From the NCBI RefSeq assembly GCF_000384135.1, contig NZ_KB913028.1, positions 1,515,351-1,579,350 on the forward strand: DNA of 64,000 nt, given 5' to 3'. The notes under the pieces are model-generated. The model was not told where the DNA came from. It searched no databases and saw nothing but the letters and a program-made list of their open reading frames with translations. The stretch is from Succinispira mobilis DSM 6222. GTDB taxonomy: Bacteria > Bacillota > Negativicutes > Acidaminococcales > Succinispiraceae. The stretch's first letter is position 1. Every line of letters begins with the position of its first letter. Below are positions 1 to 9,741 of this stretch, piece after piece. Both the position numbers and the translations under genes were made by a program.

Positions 1-76
1 ATCTCTCCCCTTCTTGTTTTGGATGAAATTGCAATGTCTTCTGTAGAAAAAATCATGTCCGTTATTATCGCAACAA

Positions 77-1183
77 CTACAAGACGACTAATTCATAATC
101 ACGACTGCCCATGCCAATCTCTTCTCCGTATTTGAGTTGTATGGTTCCGTCGACGTGGGCGCGCAAACCGTGGAATTTATCCGCACCAGCTTCGCAATTA
201 CATGACAGAAAAGAATTTGAAAAGCCAAGTTGCTGGTTTACCAGATCGTAGCTCGCTGGATCAATGGCCACAGGATCAGTGGAAGCTAAAAAGCCGATAT
301 CGGGAACGATCGGTGCGTCGCTCCAGGGCACACAATCACAATCAGGAGTAATGTTTAACAGAAAGTTGATATAGCCAATCCGCTTTTCATGAGCCTTGGC
401 AAATCCATACCCATATTCAGTCATGCGCTCAAGAAATGCCGTTAAGTCTGTTGCCCAGTCCATCCCTGTGGCCTTTACAGGACAAACGGTCAGGCATTCG
501 CCGCAGCCAATGCATTTATCTTCAGCGACACTTGCTTTCTTATCACTCACAGTAATCGCCTGTTCAGGACACACCGCGCTGCATTTATTACAGCCAACGC
601 ATTTTTCTTGATCAACCATAATCTTGAGAGCATGCTGCTCTTTTTTTCCAGTTGCCGGTGCTCCACCCATAGCAAGGTTTTTTATTGCTCCGCCGAAGCC
701 CGCCATCTCATGCGCCTTAAAGTGAGACAATACGATTGCGCTGTCGGCACTGACAATGTCTTTAGCCAGTTTCACCTTATCAAAGTGTTTTTTACCTATT
801 TGCACCTCAGCAATATTTTCGCTGCGTAATCCATCAGCTATGATAATGGGCGCCCCGGTGACCGTATAATCAAAGCCATGTTCCAATGCAGTCAGCAGAT
901 GTTCGACCGCATTATGCCGACTTCCCGAATAGAGAGTGTTGGTGTCGGTCAAAAAAGGCTTGGCTCCCCGTTCTTTTATTTTGTCAACAACCTGGCGCAC
1001 AAAAACAGGACTAATAAAGCCATCACTGCCGCGTTCACCAAAGGTCAACTTTACAGCCGTAAGACCATCCGGTTGAATCAGCTCACTGAAACCGGCGCGG
1101 TCAAACAGGTTCCTAATTTTGCTGATTTTATTGCTTTTATCTGTTCTTGCTCTCAAATTTGCGAAATATACTTTGCTGGACAC
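77..1183 (-). CDS. DUF362 domain protein with two 4Fe-4S clusters
   Basis: The protein has an N-terminal DUF362 domain followed by a ferredoxin-like insert with two C-x2-C-x2-C-x3-CP motifs (CVGCNKCSAVCP and CIGCGECLTVCP), enough to bind two 4Fe-4S clusters. A further Cys-rich stretch (CNCEAG) lies near the C-terminus. The family is a cytosolic iron-sulfur protein of poorly defined redox role. The reading frame is open upstream to a TTG at 1246, but I prefer the GTG at 1183 because AAAGGAG lies 8 nt before it; the longer version would overlap the preceding stop. It is the last gene of the leftward operon that starts near 4.04 kb, so co-regulation with the MerR regulator and flavodoxin-like gene is likely. 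Function beyond electron transfer is not assignable from sequence. Confidence 0.8.
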   Translation of the reverse strand: MSSKVYFANLRARTDKSNKISKIRNLFDRAGFSELIQPDGLTAVKLTFGERGSDGFISPVFVRQVVDKIKERGAKPFLTDTNTLYSGSRHNAVEHLLTALEHGFDYTVTGAPIIIADGLRSENIAEVQIGKKHFDKVKLAKDIVSADSAIVLSHFKAHEMAGFGGAIKNLAMGGAPATGKKEQHALKIMVDQEKCVGCNKCSAVCPEQAITVSDKKASVAEDKCIGCGECLTVCPVKATGMDWATDLTAFLERMTEYGYGFAKAHEKRIGYINFLLNITPDCDCVPWSDAPIVPDIGFLASTDPVAIDPASYDLVNQQLGFSNSFLSCNCEAGADKFHGLRAHVDGTIQLKYGEEIGMGSRDYELVVL

Positions 1184-1242
1184 AAGTGTTTCTCCTTTAC
1201 AAATCACATTTTTTCGGGAACTTGTAGGCAAACAGTAATTAA

Positions 1243-1782
1243 TCAAACGTTTTTTCCCATTTGATAAGCTTCTTTCAAGATCGACGGCGAATTACAGATA
1301 TCTCCCGGCTTAGTTGCTCCAACTCCGCGCACAACCCCTGCCAAATTTGTCAGATCAAAGCAATCGATCCATCCTTGCAAGCCCTTTACTGCACCATCCA
1401 TAGAAGCCGGATCTACATCAGCTGATGCTGCCAGCAAATAAATGTCGCGAAAAGCATACTTCTGAGGAAAAAGAGGATTAGAACGATCCAGCAAGGTTTT
1501 CATCTGCCCACACATTTCATAAAAATATATTGGTGTTGCGAAGACTATCGTGTCGGCATGAAGCATTTTTTCGCCAATTGCATTTGCATCGTCGTCTATT
1601 ACGCACTTCTTAGTAGTCTGACAAGCAAGACAACCTTTGCAAAAGCCAATATTTTGGTCATACAGACAGATTTCTTCTACGCTATGCCCGCTTTCAAGAG
1701 CGCCTCGCTTGAACTCATCAGCTAATATTTCAGAATTCCCCCCTTTGCGCGGGCTGGTGGATATAATTAGTATATTTTTCAT
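1243..1782 (-). CDS. flavodoxin-like NAD(P)H-dependent FMN oxidoreductase
   Basis: A 179-residue protein of the NADPH-dependent FMN reductase / iron-sulfur flavoprotein class. The N-terminal strand and phosphate-binding loop read ILIISTSPRKGGNSEIL, the usual FMN site. A CKGCLACQ segment near residues 48-55 is typical of flavoproteins with extra cysteines that may hold a cluster or act as redox thiols. TPIYFYEMCGQMKTLLDR matches the second flavin-contact region of the family. It lies between the lipoprotein and the DUF362 ferredoxin protein, so the pair could form a short electron-transfer chain. That link is inference; the fold assignment is secure. Confidence 0.85.
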   Translation of the reverse strand: MKNILIISTSPRKGGNSEILADEFKRGALESGHSVEEICLYDQNIGFCKGCLACQTTKKCVIDDDANAIGEKMLHADTIVFATPIYFYEMCGQMKTLLDRSNPLFPQKYAFRDIYLLAASADVDPASMDGAVKGLQGWIDCFDLTNLAGVVRGVGATKPGDICNSPSILKEAYQMGKNV

Positions 1783-1837
1783 TCTATTCGTCTCCTGTCA
1801 TGGTTTTTGTAATCAGGACTTAAGGTACACTCGCTAA

Positions 1838-2407
1838 TCAATTGCTGATTTCAAATGTAACCTGTACATCTCCCTTTCCCAGGACCTCTTTCAACCCGGA
1901 AATGTCTTCTATATAACCAAGTCTGACGTATCCACCATTTGAATTGGAAAACGTATTATAAAATAGTACCAGGCTATTAGATGACCAACACATGATCTCT
2001 CCCGCATGAATGGTTGCAGGCGTCTCTGTCGATTTGACAGGCAAATTCTCCGATAAATGATAATATTTCTCCCGGCCATTCAGTTCAGTCATACTAACAG
2101 TCATCGGCAACTTCACAATCAAAGCTCTTGTTGTTTCGTTATTATAAAGCTTCACAGGGAACACCTTGTCACCAACCGTAATCTTTGCGTTTATCATTTT
2201 CTCACTTTCAACATTGCCGGTTTGTTTGCTATGGTTACTTTCTGTAAGTGGTTTAGAATTTGACGTTGGCGATTCCGAATTTTCAGCAACTGAATTGTTT
2301 ACGGCTGTTACCCCTGAATTCTTGGTAAAGCCACAAGCAGCTAGTAGGAACGCCAAAAGAACCGATAGCAACAACAGGAGGAATCTATTTAACCCTTTTA
2401 TTTTCAC
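1838..2407 (-). CDS. lipoprotein with cyclophilin-like fold domain
   Basis: The N-terminus is a lipoprotein signal: basic start, a run of leucines and the lipobox LLAAC with the acylated Cys at residue 25. A Ser/Asn-rich linker follows (about 26-70). The remaining 120 residues, from MINAKITVGDKVF onward, match the small bacterial cyclophilin-like domain (VKLYNNETTRALI..LP at its start, GYIEDISGL..LGKGDVQVTFEI at its end). Members of this family are commonly found next to flavodoxin and alpha/beta hydrolase genes; their activity is unproven. Expected location is the outer face of the cytoplasmic membrane. It lies 26 nt downstream of the MerR gene in the same operon. Confidence 0.75.
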   Translation of the reverse strand: MKIKGLNRFLLLLLSVLLAFLLAACGFTKNSGVTAVNNSVAENSESPTSNSKPLTESNHSKQTGNVESEKMINAKITVGDKVFPVKLYNNETTRALIVKLPMTVSMTELNGREKYYHLSENLPVKSTETPATIHAGEIMCWSSNSLVLFYNTFSNSNGGYVRLGYIEDISGLKEVLGKGDVQVTFEISN

Positions 2408-2433
2408 TTATACTCCTCCAGCTTCAACAAGTC

Positions 2434-2829
2434 TCATTTCTTATTATCTTTATCCATAATTTCTACAGATTCCTCAAGATGATCGTAATTGTCAATTTTG
2501 CACAGCAAACGTTCTTTAACGGCCTGCAATTCCACAATGCGTTCGTCCAATCGACGATACTCATCCAGCAAAAGTTCCTTCCTAGCATCTTTGGTAGCTG
2601 GCCCCTGTTGATAAAGTTGAACATACTCAACAAGAGTTTCTACCGGCATACCGGCTTTTCGCATGCAGTGAATAAATTCAATCCATCCACAGCTGTAGTC
2701 ATCATATTCGCGAATTCCATTAGGCCTGCGTTTAACCGGAGGAATAAGGCCGATTCGTTCGTAATAACGCAGTGTATCATGCGTTAACCCGTATTTTTCA
2801 CTTACTTCCGAGATAAGCATCTGATTCAC
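2434..2829 (-). CDS. MerR-family transcriptional regulator, AdhR-like
   Basis: The N-terminal winged HTH is clear (LISEVSEKYGLTHDTLRYYERIGLIPP), followed by a coiled-coil dimerisation helix from about residue 90 (RRLDERIVELQAVKERLL). The first-helix region after the wing reads FIHCMRKAGMPVE with Cys55, close to where aldehyde- and thiol-stress regulators of the AdhR/NmlR group carry their sensing cysteine; Cys47 is a second candidate. There is no metal-binding C-terminal loop as in MerR or CueR. The gene sits 12 nt after an alpha/beta hydrolase gene whose promoter has the 19-bp spacer used by MerR proteins, so autoregulation is likely. The inducer is inferred only from family resemblance. Confidence 0.85.
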   Translation of the reverse strand: MNQMLISEVSEKYGLTHDTLRYYERIGLIPPVKRRPNGIREYDDYSCGWIEFIHCMRKAGMPVETLVEYVQLYQQGPATKDARKELLLDEYRRLDERIVELQAVKERLLCKIDNYDHLEESVEIMDKDNKK

Positions 2830-2840
2830 TCCTTATAAAT

Positions 2841-3908
2841 TTAAATACTTGAAAAAAACTCAGTTAACTTGTCAAAGGGAATCATATCTTTCCGATCATA
2901 CAAATCAATATGTCTCGCCCCTTTAACGATGTATAATTCCTTTGGCTCAGCCGCCTGTTTATAGGCGTCTTCTGTAAAGTAGCGAGAGTGCGCGTTTTCA
3001 CCCATAATGAACAAAATCGGCCGCGGCGAAATCGTATCAAGATAGTTCATCTCCGGGAAGTTCATAAACGCCATACTACTCGTAATCGTAAATGCGCCTA
3101 TTGAATTTGGATGGTGTCCGCGTGGCGCTACATAGTATTCAAAAAACTCATCCGTAATAGGATCTACGGATTTCTCAGGTATTTCCGCTGGGAACTGCGG
3201 CGCTAACTGGGGTGCGCCATTGTCCACATCCTTCCAACGCTGCTCACCCAGTTGATCCAGAAGTTTATTTCGTTGTTCTGGTGTCATACTGTCTTTCCAA
3301 CCGTTGCGTATCACACGGCTCATATCATACATGCTCGCGGTAGCAACTGCCTTAATTCGATGATCCACCTGTGCTGCGGTAAGCGCAAACCCACCGCTTC
3401 CACAAATGCCGATCGCACCAATTTTTTCTCGGTCTACATAGGGAAGCGTTCCTAAAAAATCTACACCTGCACTAAAGTCTTCTGTAAATATGTCTGGCGA
3501 AGAAATATGTTTAGGTTCTCCGCTACTTTCGCCGTTATAAGATTCGTCAAATGCAATTGCGATAAAGCCTCTTTCAGCCATTGTCTGCGCATAAATACCA
3601 GCACCCTGCTCCTTTACACCGCCATATGGCGTACCGATAACCAGCGCTGCATGTTTTTGGGTTTTATCAAGATTCTTCGGTACATATAAATCTGCAGCAA
3701 CGGTAATACCATATCTGTTTTTATAAGAGACTTTTTCAATTATTACTTTATCGCTAGGCGGGAAAGTCCTCCCATCAATCAAATTATCGGTTGCTGAATG
3801 TTTGTCCGATGCAACCGCAGCATCAACACCGTTCATAGACAATACCAGTCCCAAAGTCATAGTTGCAAGCATTTTTAAGCTTGTCGTAAAAATTGTTTTC
3901 TTTTTCAT
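2841..3908 (-). CDS. secreted alpha/beta hydrolase, paralogue of the gene at 6841
   Basis: A 355-aa protein with a Sec-type signal peptide (basic MKKK start, hydrophobic stretch, likely cleavage after about residue 33). The core is an alpha/beta hydrolase. The nucleophile elbow near residue 169 reads GICGSGGF, which aligns with the Cys-nucleophile elbow of dienelactone hydrolases rather than the common GxSxG. A conserved GENAHSRYF segment and the C-terminal GARHIDLYD supply the likely acid and histidine. First gene of the leftward operon, headed by a MerR-type promoter at 4042-4072. The substrate is unknown; the signal peptide suggests action at the cell surface. It closely resembles the divergent gene starting at 6841. 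Confidence 0.8.
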   Translation of the reverse strand: MKKKTIFTTSLKMLATMTLGLVLSMNGVDAAVASDKHSATDNLIDGRTFPPSDKVIIEKVSYKNRYGITVAADLYVPKNLDKTQKHAALVIGTPYGGVKEQGAGIYAQTMAERGFIAIAFDESYNGESSGEPKHISSPDIFTEDFSAGVDFLGTLPYVDREKIGAIGICGSGGFALTAAQVDHRIKAVATASMYDMSRVIRNGWKDSMTPEQRNKLLDQLGEQRWKDVDNGAPQLAPQFPAEIPEKSVDPITDEFFEYYVAPRGHHPNSIGAFTITSSMAFMNFPEMNYLDTISPRPILFIMGENAHSRYFTEDAYKQAAEPKELYIVKGARHIDLYDRKDMIPFDKLTEFFSSI

Positions 3909-4041
3909 ATTAGTACCCCTTTCATTTTTGATTTTTTAAATGTACATTCAATTTCTGGCTTACAGCAGTTTGATGTAGTCAAGGTAAAGCGAATACATCG
4001 CTGTGCCACTTATAAAATTTACGCAACAGCACTTCAAAATT

Positions 4042-4072
4042 AGTCTAACACCTAGAGTTAACACCAGGTCAA
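4042..4072 (-). promoter_or_regulatory. MerR-type promoter (19-bp spacer) of the hydrolase-merR operon
   Basis: On the minus strand TTGACC (4072-4067) and TAGACT (4047-4042) are separated by exactly 19 bp. The spacer carries the interrupted dyad TGGTGTTAACTCTAGGTGT centred on GTTAAC. Overlong spacers with a central dyad are the hallmark of promoters that MerR proteins twist into activity. It faces the alpha/beta hydrolase gene at 3908 and the merR gene after it. Confidence 0.75.
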
Positions 4073-4194
4073 GTTCTTTTGAAGAAAAAACAAATAAAAT
4101 GCAACAAGTTCGTATAAGCTACGCAAAACACATCGTCTATTATCCGCCAAAATGCAGAGATTTACACACCAAGCCCTCTCTATTCCAAGCCTTC

Positions 4195-5307
4195 TTACTC
4201 AACCTGTTCCCACCATCGCGAAAAGACTTTTTGTGAATTTGCCAATTCGACAATCTCTCCGATGAGGGGTGTAAGAAGTTGATACGTTTTGTTCTGACTT
4301 GCCGAAACAATACGCTGAAACGGTTCATCCCACGGGTGATTTGCAATAGCAAACTTGCCTATATGCCCTAGTAATAACGAATGTGTTTGCAATTCTCCAG
4401 CAGCTTGAGCCGCTTCTTCTGGCGTCATATGAATTAATGACCAGTTAGGGTCATACTGTCCCGCATCTAAAATCGCAAGATCGAACCCGCGAAACTCCTC
4501 CCCTATCTCCTTAAAATGAGGTCCATAGCCGCTGTCGCCACTAAAAAACACTCGACGCTCTCGCGTCACAAAAGCCGCCCCTATCCACAATGTCTTATCT
4601 TTGCTTAACATTCGTCCGGAATAGTGGCGAGCCGGCAAGACATGCACAAGCAGGTTGTCTTCCAATGGTACTTGTTCGTACCAATCTGCTTCATGTATAC
4701 GTTTTTCCTCAAATCCCCATTGTGCAAAGTAATTCCCCACGCCTAACCCACAAACCACATGATTAATCTTAGATTTTAGCGCAATAATCGAAGAATAATC
4801 CAAATGATCCCAGTGGTCGTGGGAAACAACCAAGCAATCGATTTCCGGCATATCTTGAGCCGTATAGAGGTTGGTTCCTGCAAAGGCCTTATTGGCGAAC
4901 GAAACAGGCGATGCATACGCGCTGAATACAGGATCGATCAATATTCTTTTCCCGCCAAGCTGCATGTAGTATGAAGAATGGCCAAGCCATATTACCACAT
5001 CCTTGGAGATATCCAATGTCTTTAAATCCGTTTTTACTGCAGGAATAGATTCGCTCGGCGTTAGCCGCTCTTTTTTAGCAAAAAGGAAATCCCACCATAA
5101 TGAAAGTAAATTTCGTTCGTTGACAACCACCGTAGTAGGAACTAGGTTTTGAAATTTCCCATTTGAATAATGCGGCGAGCTTTCCAGCTTCTCCAATCTA
5201 GCTCCATCGGGTAAAGAACCAAACTTAGGATGCTGAAGATACAGAGCGGTGCCAAGAAGTAGAACCGCGATAATCAGTAATAAAATCAACGTCATTTTTT
5301 TAACCAT
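4195..5307 (-). CDS. MBL-fold metallohydrolase, NAPE-PLD/UlaG-like, membrane anchored
   Basis: A 370-aa metallo-beta-lactamase-fold protein. The zinc motif HxHxDH is present near residue 160 (VVSHDHWDHLDY), with later ligands in FFSGDSGYGPHF, DAGQYDPNW and LLGHIGKF. Arrangement and length fit the NAPE-PLD/UlaG-like branch, which hydrolyses phosphodiester or lactone bonds. The first 25 residues are hydrophobic after MVKK, giving a signal anchor without a clear cleavage site, so the enzyme probably sits on the outer face of the membrane. It follows the MFS gene by 56 nt on the same strand and probably shares its MerR-type promoter. The substrate cannot be read from the sequence. Confidence 0.8.
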   Translation of the reverse strand: MVKKMTLILLLIIAVLLLGTALYLQHPKFGSLPDGARLEKLESSPHYSNGKFQNLVPTTVVVNERNLLSLWWDFLFAKKERLTPSESIPAVKTDLKTLDISKDVVIWLGHSSYYMQLGGKRILIDPVFSAYASPVSFANKAFAGTNLYTAQDMPEIDCLVVSHDHWDHLDYSSIIALKSKINHVVCGLGVGNYFAQWGFEEKRIHEADWYEQVPLEDNLLVHVLPARHYSGRMLSKDKTLWIGAAFVTRERRVFFSGDSGYGPHFKEIGEEFRGFDLAILDAGQYDPNWSLIHMTPEEAAQAAGELQTHSLLLGHIGKFAIANHPWDEPFQRIVSASQNKTYQLLTPLIGEIVELANSQKVFSRWWEQVE

Positions 5308-5363
5308 CTTTCACCATAAGTCTTTCCATAATCATTATTGTTTTTTGAAAAAATGCCAAATCA

Positions 5364-6569
5364 TTACGCTAAGCTTTTTTCGCCCGCTTCCTCAGTCGTC
5401 ATTTTTTCGTCCCTTTGGGAACGACAGAGACGCATAAAAATAAAGACGCTGCTTAGCGCGGAAAAAACCACGCCTCCAAGCATAACGAATTCCATGCCAA
5501 TTTCGGATATGAAATAACCACATACCGTAGCACCCAGCGTCACCCCTAAATTAGCGGAAGTTAGAAACAACCCGTTGGCAAAATCCGGCGCTTCCGGCGC
5601 AGCTGTGGAAACCCAATACTGGTTAATATTAGCCCCGATTCCTCCTAAAACGCCCCAAATAAAAATAAGCAGCGCCGCAGGCATAGCAAATTCACCTACT
5701 AGAAATAGAAGCATATAAAGCGCTCCCAAGAAAAACGGAAAAGCGGCTACCGTTTTGTTTGCATTCTTAGTAAGCAAGCGCCCGGCAAGCATACTGCCGA
5801 GAATATTGGCCATTCCATACACAAATAGAACCAAACTAATTGTATTCCAGGAAAAGTGCGTAACCGATTCTAAATATTTTGCCAGATAGCTAAACACGCC
5901 AAACACGGCGCCATTCATAAGGAGCACTGCGATAAGGGATATCCATGTTAGTGATTTTTTCAGCACACTTACCTGTTCCCCATAAGACAGCCGCCTTTCT
6001 ACCGGCATAGAGGGTACCCAGAAAAAGGTCGCCAGCAATGCCAGAGCAGTGACAAGGGCAAAAAACGCCATAGACATCTCAAGAGAAACCGCAGCGGCAA
6101 TGAAATTGCTCACGGGTACGCCAATAACCATTCCGGCTGACACGCCAATGAATACTTTTGCCACAGCTTTGGGAGACTCCTCTGGTTTAACTGAGGCAGC
6201 CGCTACTGAAAAGGCCAGTGAACAATAAATCGGATGAAAAAAAGCCGGGATCACTCGCGCCAGCAGGGCAATTACGAAATTAGGCGCAAAGATAGCGACA
6301 ATATTTCCTGCAGTAAAAATTCCAAGCACCAACAACATCACTTTTTTACGATCAATCCCAGAAAACAAAAGAGGCATTGTAGGGCCGGATATTGCAACAA
6401 CCAAAGCAAACAAACTTACGAGCAAACCAGCCTGTGATATACTGACTTGAAACTTCTCCGCCACAAACGGCAAAATCCCAATTATTCCCATTTCAGTATT
6501 TAGGATACCAAAAACTCCTACAGTTAAAATAAATATGATCAAATTATTTCGTTTCTTCAACTGATACAT
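5364..6569 (-). CDS. MFS efflux transporter (DHA1-like)
   Basis: A 401-aa hydrophobic protein with 12 predicted membrane spans, beginning with NNLIIFILTVGVFGILNTEM. The loop between helices 2 and 3 carries SGIDRKKVM, the shortened form of the MFS signature, and helix 4-5 contains R-x-I-P-AFFHPIY, as in AraJ/YdhP-type DHA1 drug:proton antiporters. An acidic, basic tail (CRSQRDEKM..) ends the protein in the cytosol. It is read from the MerR-type promoter at 6639-6669 and precedes the MBL-fold hydrolase. Together with the divergent hydrolase this suggests export or detoxification of a small organic compound; that role is inference. Confidence 0.85.
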   Translation of the reverse strand: MYQLKKRNNLIIFILTVGVFGILNTEMGIIGILPFVAEKFQVSISQAGLLVSLFALVVAISGPTMPLLFSGIDRKKVMLLVLGIFTAGNIVAIFAPNFVIALLARVIPAFFHPIYCSLAFSVAAASVKPEESPKAVAKVFIGVSAGMVIGVPVSNFIAAAVSLEMSMAFFALVTALALLATFFWVPSMPVERRLSYGEQVSVLKKSLTWISLIAVLLMNGAVFGVFSYLAKYLESVTHFSWNTISLVLFVYGMANILGSMLAGRLLTKNANKTVAAFPFFLGALYMLLFLVGEFAMPAALLIFIWGVLGGIGANINQYWVSTAAPEAPDFANGLFLTSANLGVTLGATVCGYFISEIGMEFVMLGGVVFSALSSVFIFMRLCRSQRDEKMTTEEAGEKSLA

Positions 6570-6638
6570 CTCCTTATCTCAACGAATTCTATGCATTTGA
6601 TAAATAGTATCGCCTTCTTTCGGCTGATACACCTAAGC

Positions 6639-6669
6639 AGTGTATCACTTGGAGTTAAGACTAGGTCAA
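6639..6669 (-). promoter_or_regulatory. MerR-type promoter (19-bp spacer) of the MFS gene
   Basis: On the minus strand TTGACC (6669-6664) and TACACT (6644-6639) are separated by 19 bp. The spacer holds a degenerate form of the same dyad (TAGTCTTAACTCCAAGTGA). A separate perfect 7-bp inverted repeat GATACAC-N7-GTGTATC overlaps the -10 and likely start point (about 6626-6646) and could be an additional operator or a leader hairpin. Confidence 0.7.
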
Positions 6670-6703
6670 ACGTTTTTTTTTAAAGAAAATTTCACGGCCC
6701 CTA

Positions 6704-6734
6704 TTGACTTGGTGTTAACACCAGGTTGTACCAT
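6704..6734 (+). promoter_or_regulatory. MerR-type promoter (19-bp spacer) of the hydrolase at 6841
   Basis: TTGACT (6704-6709) and TACCAT (6729-6734) are 19 bp apart, and the spacer holds the perfect 14-bp palindrome TGGTGTTAACACCA. It is the best dyad of the three MerR-type promoters here and closely matches AdhR-class operators, which also centre on GTTAAC. It is back-to-back with the MFS promoter, with 35 bp between the two -35 boxes. Confidence 0.8.
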
Positions 6735-6840
6735 AATAACGAAACACAAACTCTCTTGAAAACAAGAAAGAAAATATATAACAATAACGCAGTCTGTGTT
6801 TCAAAAGCATAGGATCTAAAAGAAAAGGAAGGGGTTAATT

Positions 6841-7908
6841 ATGAAAACGTCTATTATTACTCGAAGCCTTCATTTATTAAAGACGCTAGCGTTAGGTGTG
6901 CTCTTGTCGGTAGCCGGCGTTGGCGTTGCATCCGCGGCAGACATGTCCAATGGAGCAGACAACTTTTATAAGAGCGACAATGTAACCATGCAAAGGGTTA
7001 CATTTAAAAACCAATATAATATGAAAGTTGTAGGGAATCTTTTTATTCCCAAAGATTTTAATCAGAACGCCAAAAATCCCGCGATCATTGTCGGGCATCC
7101 TATGGGCGCGGTAAAAGAACAAAGCGCCAATCTATATGCCACGAAAATGGCTGAACAGGGCTTCGTTACTTTGTCCTTAGATTTGTCTTTCTGGGGAGAG
7201 AGTGAGGGGCTGCCTCGCAACGCTGTTTCGCCGGATATCTATGCCGAAGATTTCAGTGCTGCGGTGGATTTTCTGGGTACCCGCCCGTTTGTTGACAGGG
7301 AACGGATAGGTGTTATCGGAATTTGTGGCAGCGGGAGCTTTGCTATCAGCGCCGCCAAGATCGATCCGCGCATGAAAGCCATCGCCACAGTCAGCATGTA
7401 CGATATGGGTGCCGCCAACCGCAACGCTTTGCACCACTCACTTAGCATTGAGCAGCGAAAGCAAATCATCGCGGAAGCAGCAGAGCAACGCTACGTAGAA
7501 TTCACTGGCGGTGAAACCAAGTACACCAGTGGGACAACGCATGAGTTGAATGAGAACACCCACCCCATTCAGCGTGAATTTTATGATTTCTATCGCACTC
7601 CAAGGGGCGAATTCACTTCTAAAGGCTCATCACCAAAGCTGACGACGCACCCGACGTTTACCAGCAATGTTAAATTCATGAATTTTTACCCTTTCAATGA
7701 CATCGAAACCATTTCTCCTCGCCCCATGCTTTTTATCGCGGGCGAGAACGCTCATTCCCGAGAGTTTAGCGAAGACGCCTATAAGCTGGCAGCCGAACCG
7801 AAGGAACTCTACATTGTTCCGGGCGCAGGTCATGTGGATCTGTACGACCGGGTAGATTTAATTCCCTTTGCCAAGCTCACATCCTTCTTCAAAGAAAATC
7901 TGAAATAG
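6841..7908 (+). CDS. secreted alpha/beta hydrolase, paralogue of the gene at 2841
   Basis: A 355-aa protein with a signal peptide of about 33 residues ending VASAADM. The hydrolase core carries GICGSGSF near residue 160 (Cys- or Ser-type nucleophile elbow), GENAHSREF near 300 and GAGHVDLYD near 328 for the catalytic histidine. Length and all motifs are shared with the gene at 2841-3908, so the two arose by duplication. They are now driven by different MerR-type promoters of one regulon. A good Shine-Dalgarno (AAGGAAGGGG) lies ahead of the ATG. The gene stands alone and is followed by a terminator at 7967. Substrate unknown. Confidence 0.8.
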   Translation: MKTSIITRSLHLLKTLALGVLLSVAGVGVASAADMSNGADNFYKSDNVTMQRVTFKNQYNMKVVGNLFIPKDFNQNAKNPAIIVGHPMGAVKEQSANLYATKMAEQGFVTLSLDLSFWGESEGLPRNAVSPDIYAEDFSAAVDFLGTRPFVDRERIGVIGICGSGSFAISAAKIDPRMKAIATVSMYDMGAANRNALHHSLSIEQRKQIIAEAAEQRYVEFTGGETKYTSGTTHELNENTHPIQREFYDFYRTPRGEFTSKGSSPKLTTHPTFTSNVKFMNFYPFNDIETISPRPMLFIAGENAHSREFSEDAYKLAAEPKELYIVPGAGHVDLYDRVDLIPFAKLTSFFKENLK

Positions 7909-7966
7909 AAATCGCGTTAAAGCGCTAGAAACTTAGCATGCCATTGATACTTTAAGTAAAACCACC

Positions 7967-8004
7967 GTGAGAATCCCATATATTTTGGGTTTCTCACTTT
8001 TTTT
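7967..8004 (+). terminator. rho-independent terminator after the hydrolase gene
   Basis: GTGAGAATCCCA pairs with TGGGTTTCTCAC (one mismatch) across a short AT loop and is followed by seven Ts. Confidence 0.8.
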
Positions 8005-8599: not shown

Positions 8600-9451
8600 C
8601 TATGCAAATCGAGCTTCCATTGGTGTTAAATAATCATTGTAAGAATGGGGTCTTACATAATTGTACCAGTTAATATATTCTTTTGTCATTTTATCTAGCA
8701 TTTCTACACTTTCAAAAGTAAATCTATAGTAGAAACAACTTTTAAAAGTATTATAGAATCTTTCCATCGGTGCATTGTCATATGGGCATCCAGCTTTACT
8801 CATACTCTGTGTTATACCTTGTTCTCTACAAAACATAACGAACTCCCATGAGGCAAACTGCTGACCCTGATCCGAATGTAATATTAAATTTTTTGGATAT
8901 TTCTCTTGTTTTAAAGCTGCCTTTAATGTATCTTTTGCAAGATCTGTGTTTATATAATCACTATTGACTGACGCAATAGCTGATCTATCAAATAAATCGA
9001 TAATGGTGCAGTTATATCTGAACCTGCCGTTAGGCTGACGCATATAGGTAAAGTCGGTGCACCACACCTTGTTTTTATAATCAACAGTGAAGTTTTGGTT
9101 TAATAGATTATTAAATACCTTGTGTTTTTTGCCAGAAGTATATCCTGGCTTTTTACGCATGATGATAGCAGCTAAATTAAGTGTTTTATTCATATATTTA
9201 TGTACCGTAGTTTTACTTAAATGAATTCCATAACGTGATAAAAATACACGCATAGCTCTGTGCCCTACAGTTCTATTATTATTGTAATAAATATACTTAA
9301 TCCTTTCATAGATGGTCTCGCGCTGCTCGTGATATTCAACTTTAGTATCTTTAAGATAATTATAATAACCATTAGGACTAATGCCAAATCTGCGACACAG
9401 CCACCTTAAACCAAAATATTCTTTATTGTTGTCAATGAAACGATATACCAC
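8600..9451 (-). CDS. IS3-family transposase OrfB (DDE integrase domain)
   Basis: A 283-aa protein with an N-terminal HTH_21-type region (residues about 45-105) and an rve integrase core. The catalytic triad is visible: Asp in VWCTDFTYM, Asp in LHSDQGQQFAS and Glu in NAPMERFYNTFK, with the D(35)E spacing of the family. It begins with GTG that overlaps the orfA stop (TAGTG), so it is translated by coupling or through a frameshift fusion with OrfA. The reading frame is complete, so the element may still be active. Confidence 0.9.
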   Translation of the reverse strand: MVYRFIDNNKEYFGLRWLCRRFGISPNGYYNYLKDTKVEYHEQRETIYERIKYIYYNNNRTVGHRAMRVFLSRYGIHLSKTTVHKYMNKTLNLAAIIMRKKPGYTSGKKHKVFNNLLNQNFTVDYKNKVWCTDFTYMRQPNGRFRYNCTIIDLFDRSAIASVNSDYINTDLAKDTLKAALKQEKYPKNLILHSDQGQQFASWEFVMFCREQGITQSMSKAGCPYDNAPMERFYNTFKSCFYYRFTFESVEMLDKMTKEYINWYNYVRPHSYNDYLTPMEARFA

Positions 9452-9741
9452 TAATCGATTTCCTTTGCGAAGAATGCCGCTGCTTTTTTTAAGAACTCAA
9501 TCTCTTTATCTTTTTCCTTGAGCATCTGGTTGAGTTTTCGAATTTCACTTGCAGAATCACTTTCACTTGTTTTTTGAGTGGTATGTTTGTATTGGCATTC
9601 TTCACCATATTTTTTAGACCATTCTGTAATGGTGCTTTTGGCAACATTATATTCAGCAGCTAATTCTACTGTTGATTTATTGCCTGACATATAGGCTCTT
9701 ACAACTTCTCTTTTGAAGTCATCGTTGTAACGTACTGACAT
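9451..9741 (-). CDS. IS3-family transposase OrfA (HTH and leucine zipper)
   Basis: A 96-aa protein with an HTH_Tnp_1 DNA-binding domain (YNDDFKREVVRAYMSG..STVELAAEYNVAKSTITEWSKKYG) and a C-terminal coiled coil (IRKLNQMLKEKDKEIEFLKKAAAFFAK) that lets OrfA and OrfAB pair. It binds the terminal repeats. The stop codon overlaps the orfB start by one base. In related elements a -1 frameshift near this overlap makes the OrfAB transposase. Confidence 0.9.
   Translation of the reverse strand: MSVRYNDDFKREVVRAYMSGNKSTVELAAEYNVAKSTITEWSKKYGEECQYKHTTQKTSESDSASEIRKLNQMLKEKDKEIEFLKKAAAFFAKEID

Follow-up and report, generated by a model that had tools for sequence, protein, structure and literature searches.

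MerR-family regulators sit on a dyad in an over-long promoter spacer, kink the DNA and realign the two boxes (PMC9909328). In AdhR (YraB) of Bacillus subtilis the sensor cysteine is residue 52, and the C52A substitution abolishes the adhA transcript upon formaldehyde challenge (PMC4776306). The sensor cysteine of the NmlR/AdhR clade (Cys52 in AdhR, Cys54 in HiNmlR) is reported to be invariant and needed for the formaldehyde response, and a carboxymuconolactone decarboxylase is among the AdhR targets (PMC4776306). Members of the clade differ in how their genes are arranged (PMC4776306); therefore, a missing adhC-type output does not bar a regulator from membership.

The window, a 64,000-nucleotide stretch of the Succinispira mobilis DSM 6222 genome, has three putative MerR-type promoter/operators. 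Site A (4042-4072, minus strand) precedes the hydrolase-merR-lipoprotein-flavodoxin-DUF362 operon and contains the -35 box TTGACC (4067-4072), a 19-bp spacer with a dyad (TGGTGTTAACTCTAGGTGT) and the -10 box TAGACT (4042-4047) with an extended -10 TG. Site B (6639-6669, minus strand) precedes the MFS-MBL operon and has the boxes TTGACC (6664-6669) and TACACT (6639-6644), the 19-bp spacer TAGTCTTAACTCCAAGTGA and an extended -10 TG. Site C (6704-6734, plus strand) precedes the gene of the second hydrolase (hydB) with the boxes TTGACT (6704-6709) and TACCAT (6729-6734) and the 19-bp spacer TGGTGTTAACACCAGGTTG; it lacks the extended -10 TG. In each site, TTGAC and TA...T flank a 19-bp spacer with a dyad, and the coordinates and spacers that a sequence-only reading had given for three promoters with a TTGAC-type -35 box, an exact 19-bp spacer and a dyad match to the base. 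The features of MerR-family activator promoters (a spacer of 19-20 bp, a dyad between the -35 and -10 boxes and a regulator present) are all found here. A 22-bp pattern covering the -35 box and the dyad, with at most 3 mismatches allowed, gave 6 matches in the window vs 0.02 expected per window shuffle. The 6 matches are the three sites, each matched a second time, weakly, on the opposite strand.

The candidate regulator merR1 (2434-2820, minus strand) encodes a protein of 128 aa counted from the ATG at 2820, with cysteines at residues 44 and 52. Its best NCBIfam model is NF041849 (NmlR; E 2.5e-38, positions 1-114 of 117), with 130.7 bits vs a curated cut-off of 175, and its similarity to the CueR, MerR and SoxR models is far weaker. 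Among solved structures, the MerR protein 3gp4 and H. influenzae NmlR (5d8c, 5d90, 5e01) are its nearest relatives. By sequence, the regulator probably falls in the NmlR/AdhR clade. Cys52 aligns with the HiNmlR cysteine and is kept in all homologues that are 60% or more identical and in 22/23 at 50-60%; a few entries in this count are the window gene itself, recurring in several loci. The earlier proposal of an AdhR-like MerR protein with the sensor cysteine of the clade is supported, with a best model that scores below its cut-off. The cysteine had been placed at position 55; it is residue 52 when counted from the ATG that follows AAGGAG, and the count of 55 starts at an upstream GTG inside the Shine-Dalgarno sequence. 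A single MerR protein had also been proposed, but a second paralogue, merR2, lies 15 kb away behind a separate copy of the site (positions 6434-6817 of locus L034, genome 1502439-1502816). It is 89% identical to merR1 and also carries Cys52. The two proteins have 15 residue differences, mostly outside the DNA-binding head, where only S7G and H14P are found, with E48Q just beyond; they cluster together with moderate support (89/86). The remaining MerR_1 proteins of the genome are only two, of about 280 aa, and are at none of the sites.

Several other features of these proteins were observed. The merR2 gene (NmlR-type) stands alone with its own operator and has no obvious co-transcribed target. 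Cys44 is conserved along with Cys52 in most homologues that share about 50% identity or more, and the two may act as a pair. In the Sporomusa malonica locus (L127, 12391-12771), an NmlR paralogue with its own operator has Ala at position 52 and is possibly an insensitive partner. At two other loci (L091 and L092) the same 19-bp operator adjoins MerR-like proteins with Arg at position 52, so the operator seems to be common to a clade that is unable to use Cys52. Therefore, the operator alone is no proof of a cysteine sensor.

The sequence-only reading had described a local regulon, which is too narrow, since three of the six sites in the genome lie outside the window. With at most 3 mismatches, the 22-bp pattern finds exactly six TTGAC-starting sites across the 2.09-Mb genome, and an extended pattern with the -10 box added returns the identical six; the reversed pattern gave 0 sites in the whole genome. 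Since this was a pattern search and not a weight-matrix scan, the count of six may leave out weaker sites. The three extra sites each have a 19-bp spacer ending in TA...T. The first, in L034, stands upstream of merR2 (-10 box 38 nt before the gene); in L035 the gene downstream of the site encodes a purple-acid-phosphatase/metallophosphoesterase, and in L036 it encodes a second DUF362 ferredoxin. The last two target promoters are distant, at about 160 kb and 880 kb, and the predicted regulon takes in 2/3 of the DUF362 genes of the genome above the Pfam cut-off. A genome scan for further copies of the palindrome had been proposed, and it succeeded with the full 22-bp element; the central 12-bp palindrome was uninformative. 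The latter was dropped as a site marker because its count (26 seen vs 19.6 expected) is at chance level. The plain consensus TTGAC-N19-TATAAT was also rejected as a finder, as none of its 12 genome matches is one of these sites.

The spacer was analysed in sites collected from this genome and its Negativicutes relatives by means of a pattern that ends ahead of the -10 box. In 76/76 distinct sites (six from this genome and 70 others), TA...T follows the -35 box at exactly 19 bp; at other spacer lengths it was found in 0-17%, depending on the subset. At other TTGAC words of the same DNA, TA...T occurs at 19 bp in 2.4%. The extended -10 TG is present in 54/76 distinct sites. The GTGTTAAC form was seen in 9/9 hydA/hydB-cluster promoters of the sample, including those of the window. 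The distant sites L035 and L036 carry AGTTAACTC/AGTAAACTC, the island sites have GTGTTAAC or GTCTTAAC, and the site of merR2 itself has the island-type GTGTTAACTCTAGG form. An assignment of these operator sub-types to two NmlR subgroups was dropped because the GTGTTAAC form goes with the target gene (hydrolases) and not with the regulator; in one genome (G093, L125) a single NmlR-like protein was detected and both site forms are present. Among the papers searched, none gives GAGTTAACTC alongside MerR.

Such sites, in many cases as back-to-back pairs, also occur in Sporomusa malonica, S. ovata, Pelosinus propionicus and several MAGs, as well as in other Negativicutes, where they precede orthologues of the hydA/hydB, MFS, merR, DUF362 and lipoprotein genes; the arrangement of site B also recurs in relatives. 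The first genes downstream of 72 sites include merR homologues (17), DUF362 genes (about 11), hydA/hydB-type hydrolases (9-10) and MFS genes (6), along with aldo/keto reductases, flavodoxins, cyclophilin-like lipoproteins, cupin/CMD proteins, Fe-ADH, SDR, MATE and metallophosphoesterases. The class-wide targets (aldo/keto reductases, Fe-ADH, SDR, CMD, flavodoxins and MATE efflux) are gene types expected in carbonyl/electrophile defence. Among 250 sampled genomes of the class, sites were found in 15/15 genomes with a close orthologue of the regulator (E<1e-50; mean 5.1 sites), in 27/48 with a mid-range orthologue and in 13/35 with a far one. Genomes without an NmlR-like match at E<=1e-20 had sites in 12/152 (mean 0.09), and in some of these twelve a more distant MerR protein adjoins the site. 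The comparison of genomes with any NmlR-like match vs none gives a Fisher p of 4e-17, which is overstated because the genomes are related. The predicted MerR-type nature of the three window promoters is supported by the sequence itself, by genome-wide uniqueness, by conservation ahead of orthologues and by co-occurrence with the regulator, and their predicted control of the three transcription units has the same basis. The three would make up half of a well-supported predicted stress regulon of six promoters that is kept in Sporomusa/Pelosinus-type bacteria.

The predicted target genes in the window encode hydrolases, transport and redox proteins. Downstream of site A, hydA (2841-3908, minus strand) encodes an alpha/beta hydrolase of the DLH/PA2218-YcjY type with an apparent signal peptide and a GICGSG motif. 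It is 51% identical to hydB (6841-7908, plus strand), whose product is another hydrolase of the DLH type that also appears to have a signal peptide and has an invariant Cys162 within GICGSG; a search with hydB gave PA2218 and YcjY as relatives. The site A operon also encodes a cyclophilin-like lipoprotein (PF18050; 1838-2404, minus strand), an NADPH-dependent FMN reductase/flavodoxin-fold protein with CKGCLACQ cysteines (1243-1782, minus strand) and, as its last gene, a DUF362 protein with two 4Fe-4S ferredoxin motifs (77-1189, minus strand). The start codon of the DUF362 gene is uncertain, either the TTG near 1189 with AAAGGAG or the TTG at 1246. Site B precedes an MFS transporter of the drug-efflux type related to Cmx/CmrA and PRK03545 (5364-6569, minus strand) and a metallo-beta-lactamase-fold hydrolase (Lactamase_B_2; 4195-5307, minus strand). 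Hydrolases with apparent signal peptides and an invariant cysteine in GICGSG, together with efflux and with flavin/ferredoxin redox proteins, would suit a wider response to electrophiles or xenobiotics. No match to class-III AdhC (formaldehyde dehydrogenase; TIGR02818) was found in the genome at E<=0.001; therefore, formaldehyde as the inducer is not a safe assumption.

Positions 1-8000 of the window have a GC content of 43% vs 37% in the rest. IS3-type transposase-like ORFs, named by eye, follow at 8600-9741, and the nearest relatives of merR1 (89-90%) are in other families of the class, and identities within its own order reach at most 58% in the genomes sampled. The GC contrast, these ORFs and the closest merR relatives outside the order suggest that positions 1-8000 are a horizontally acquired island whose operators are compatible with merR2.

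With a probability of about 0.7, sites A-C are operator-promoters of NmlR/AdhR-type MerR regulators in which modification of the Cys52 thiol by an electrophile triggers promoter realignment. A MerR dimer would occupy the dyad between boxes that are 2 bp too far apart (19 vs 17), and the promoter would be kept off. Upon modification of Cys52 by a thiol-reactive electrophile, the regulator would kink and untwist the DNA, sigma could engage both boxes and transcription would begin. Binding, DNA distortion, the cysteine chemistry, the kind of inducer and the use of common sites by both paralogues are what we infer. Since merR1 and merR2 each lie downstream of their own site, positive feedback is likely, and the switch would be self-amplifying. 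The predicted outputs are the two signal-peptide hydrolases, the MFS exporter and MBL-fold enzyme, the cyclophilin-like lipoprotein, the flavodoxin-type reductase, two DUF362 ferredoxins and the purple-acid-phosphatase-like protein.

The same MerR switch could respond to a signal other than an electrophile at Cys52, such as a ligand (drug, aromatic acid or metal) or the redox state, in which case the MFS pump and hydrolases would act on a xenobiotic. The targets in the window itself are mostly the MFS exporter and hydrolases, AdhC was not detected, and the Arg52 proteins beside the same operator elsewhere also agree with such a signal. However, Cys52 is invariant in close orthologues and aligned with the HiNmlR sensor cysteine, carbonyl reductases are among the class-wide targets, and proteins of about 120-130 aa are too short for a BmrR-type ligand-binding domain; a ligand or redox signal is therefore unlikely. 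That the sites might be plain sigma-70 promoters, or inverted repeats that arose by chance, would agree with the lack of over-representation of the 12-bp palindrome, but it is already contradicted by the 0.02 full elements expected per window, the fixed 19-bp spacing in 76/76 sites and the conservation ahead of orthologues, and is extremely improbable.

It is also possible, if quite unlikely, that the paralogues have separate jobs with no overlap, with merR2 (GC 38%, about the genome average) in charge of the scattered sites and merR1 confined to the GC-rich island. The GC contrast of the island and the different forms at the distant and island sites could reflect such a division. It is difficult to reconcile with the few head differences among the 15 between the proteins, with the island's form at the merR2 site and with the occurrence of both forms in G093 beside the one NmlR-like protein detected.

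A pattern noticed by eye turns out to be a real, conserved predicted regulon. It gives a testable context for the poorly understood DUF362 proteins, cyclophilin-like lipoproteins and signal-peptide DLH-type hydrolases, and it suggests that an NmlR/AdhR switch operates in an anaerobe genome without a classical formaldehyde dehydrogenase. More tentatively, and with the odds somewhat against it, this could be a class-wide electrophile regulon of anaerobes with DUF362 ferredoxin proteins as a main output and as a redox component of AdhC-free detoxification of electrophiles. The papers searched gave nothing usable on this regulon or on DUF362 induction in anaerobes.

Of the known systems, AdhR resembles MerR1 in its short length and in the position of its sensor cysteine, residue 52, and the carboxymuconolactone decarboxylase family is also found downstream of one site of the class survey (L078). 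AdhR activates adhA (formaldehyde dehydrogenase), yraC and yraA, whereas here an AdhC-type gene was not detected, the predicted targets encode DLH-type hydrolases, MFS/MBL, flavodoxin, DUF362 and phosphatase proteins, and there are two paralogues. NmlR of Haemophilus influenzae, Neisseria and Streptococcus pneumoniae is the best NCBIfam match, with near full-length homology and an aligned sensor cysteine; however, MerR1 scores below the curated cut-off, the regulon lacks the adhC-estD pair, and the conserved Cys44 has no counterpart in HiNmlR, which is without a cysteine at that position. Control of an adhC-type, thiol-dependent formaldehyde dehydrogenase, the usual though not universal NmlR/AdhR output, was not found here. 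The promoters of CueR, SoxR and BmrR have a dyad in an over-long 19-bp spacer, as here, and are activated by DNA distortion (PMC9909328; PMC7722741 for BmrR), as predicted here, but the 128-aa protein has no ligand domain and shows much weaker similarity to the CueR, MerR and SoxR models. On the best reading, the mechanism is an ordinary one, predicted to be a known kind of thiol-based electrophile switch, and the novelty is in the make-up of the regulon.
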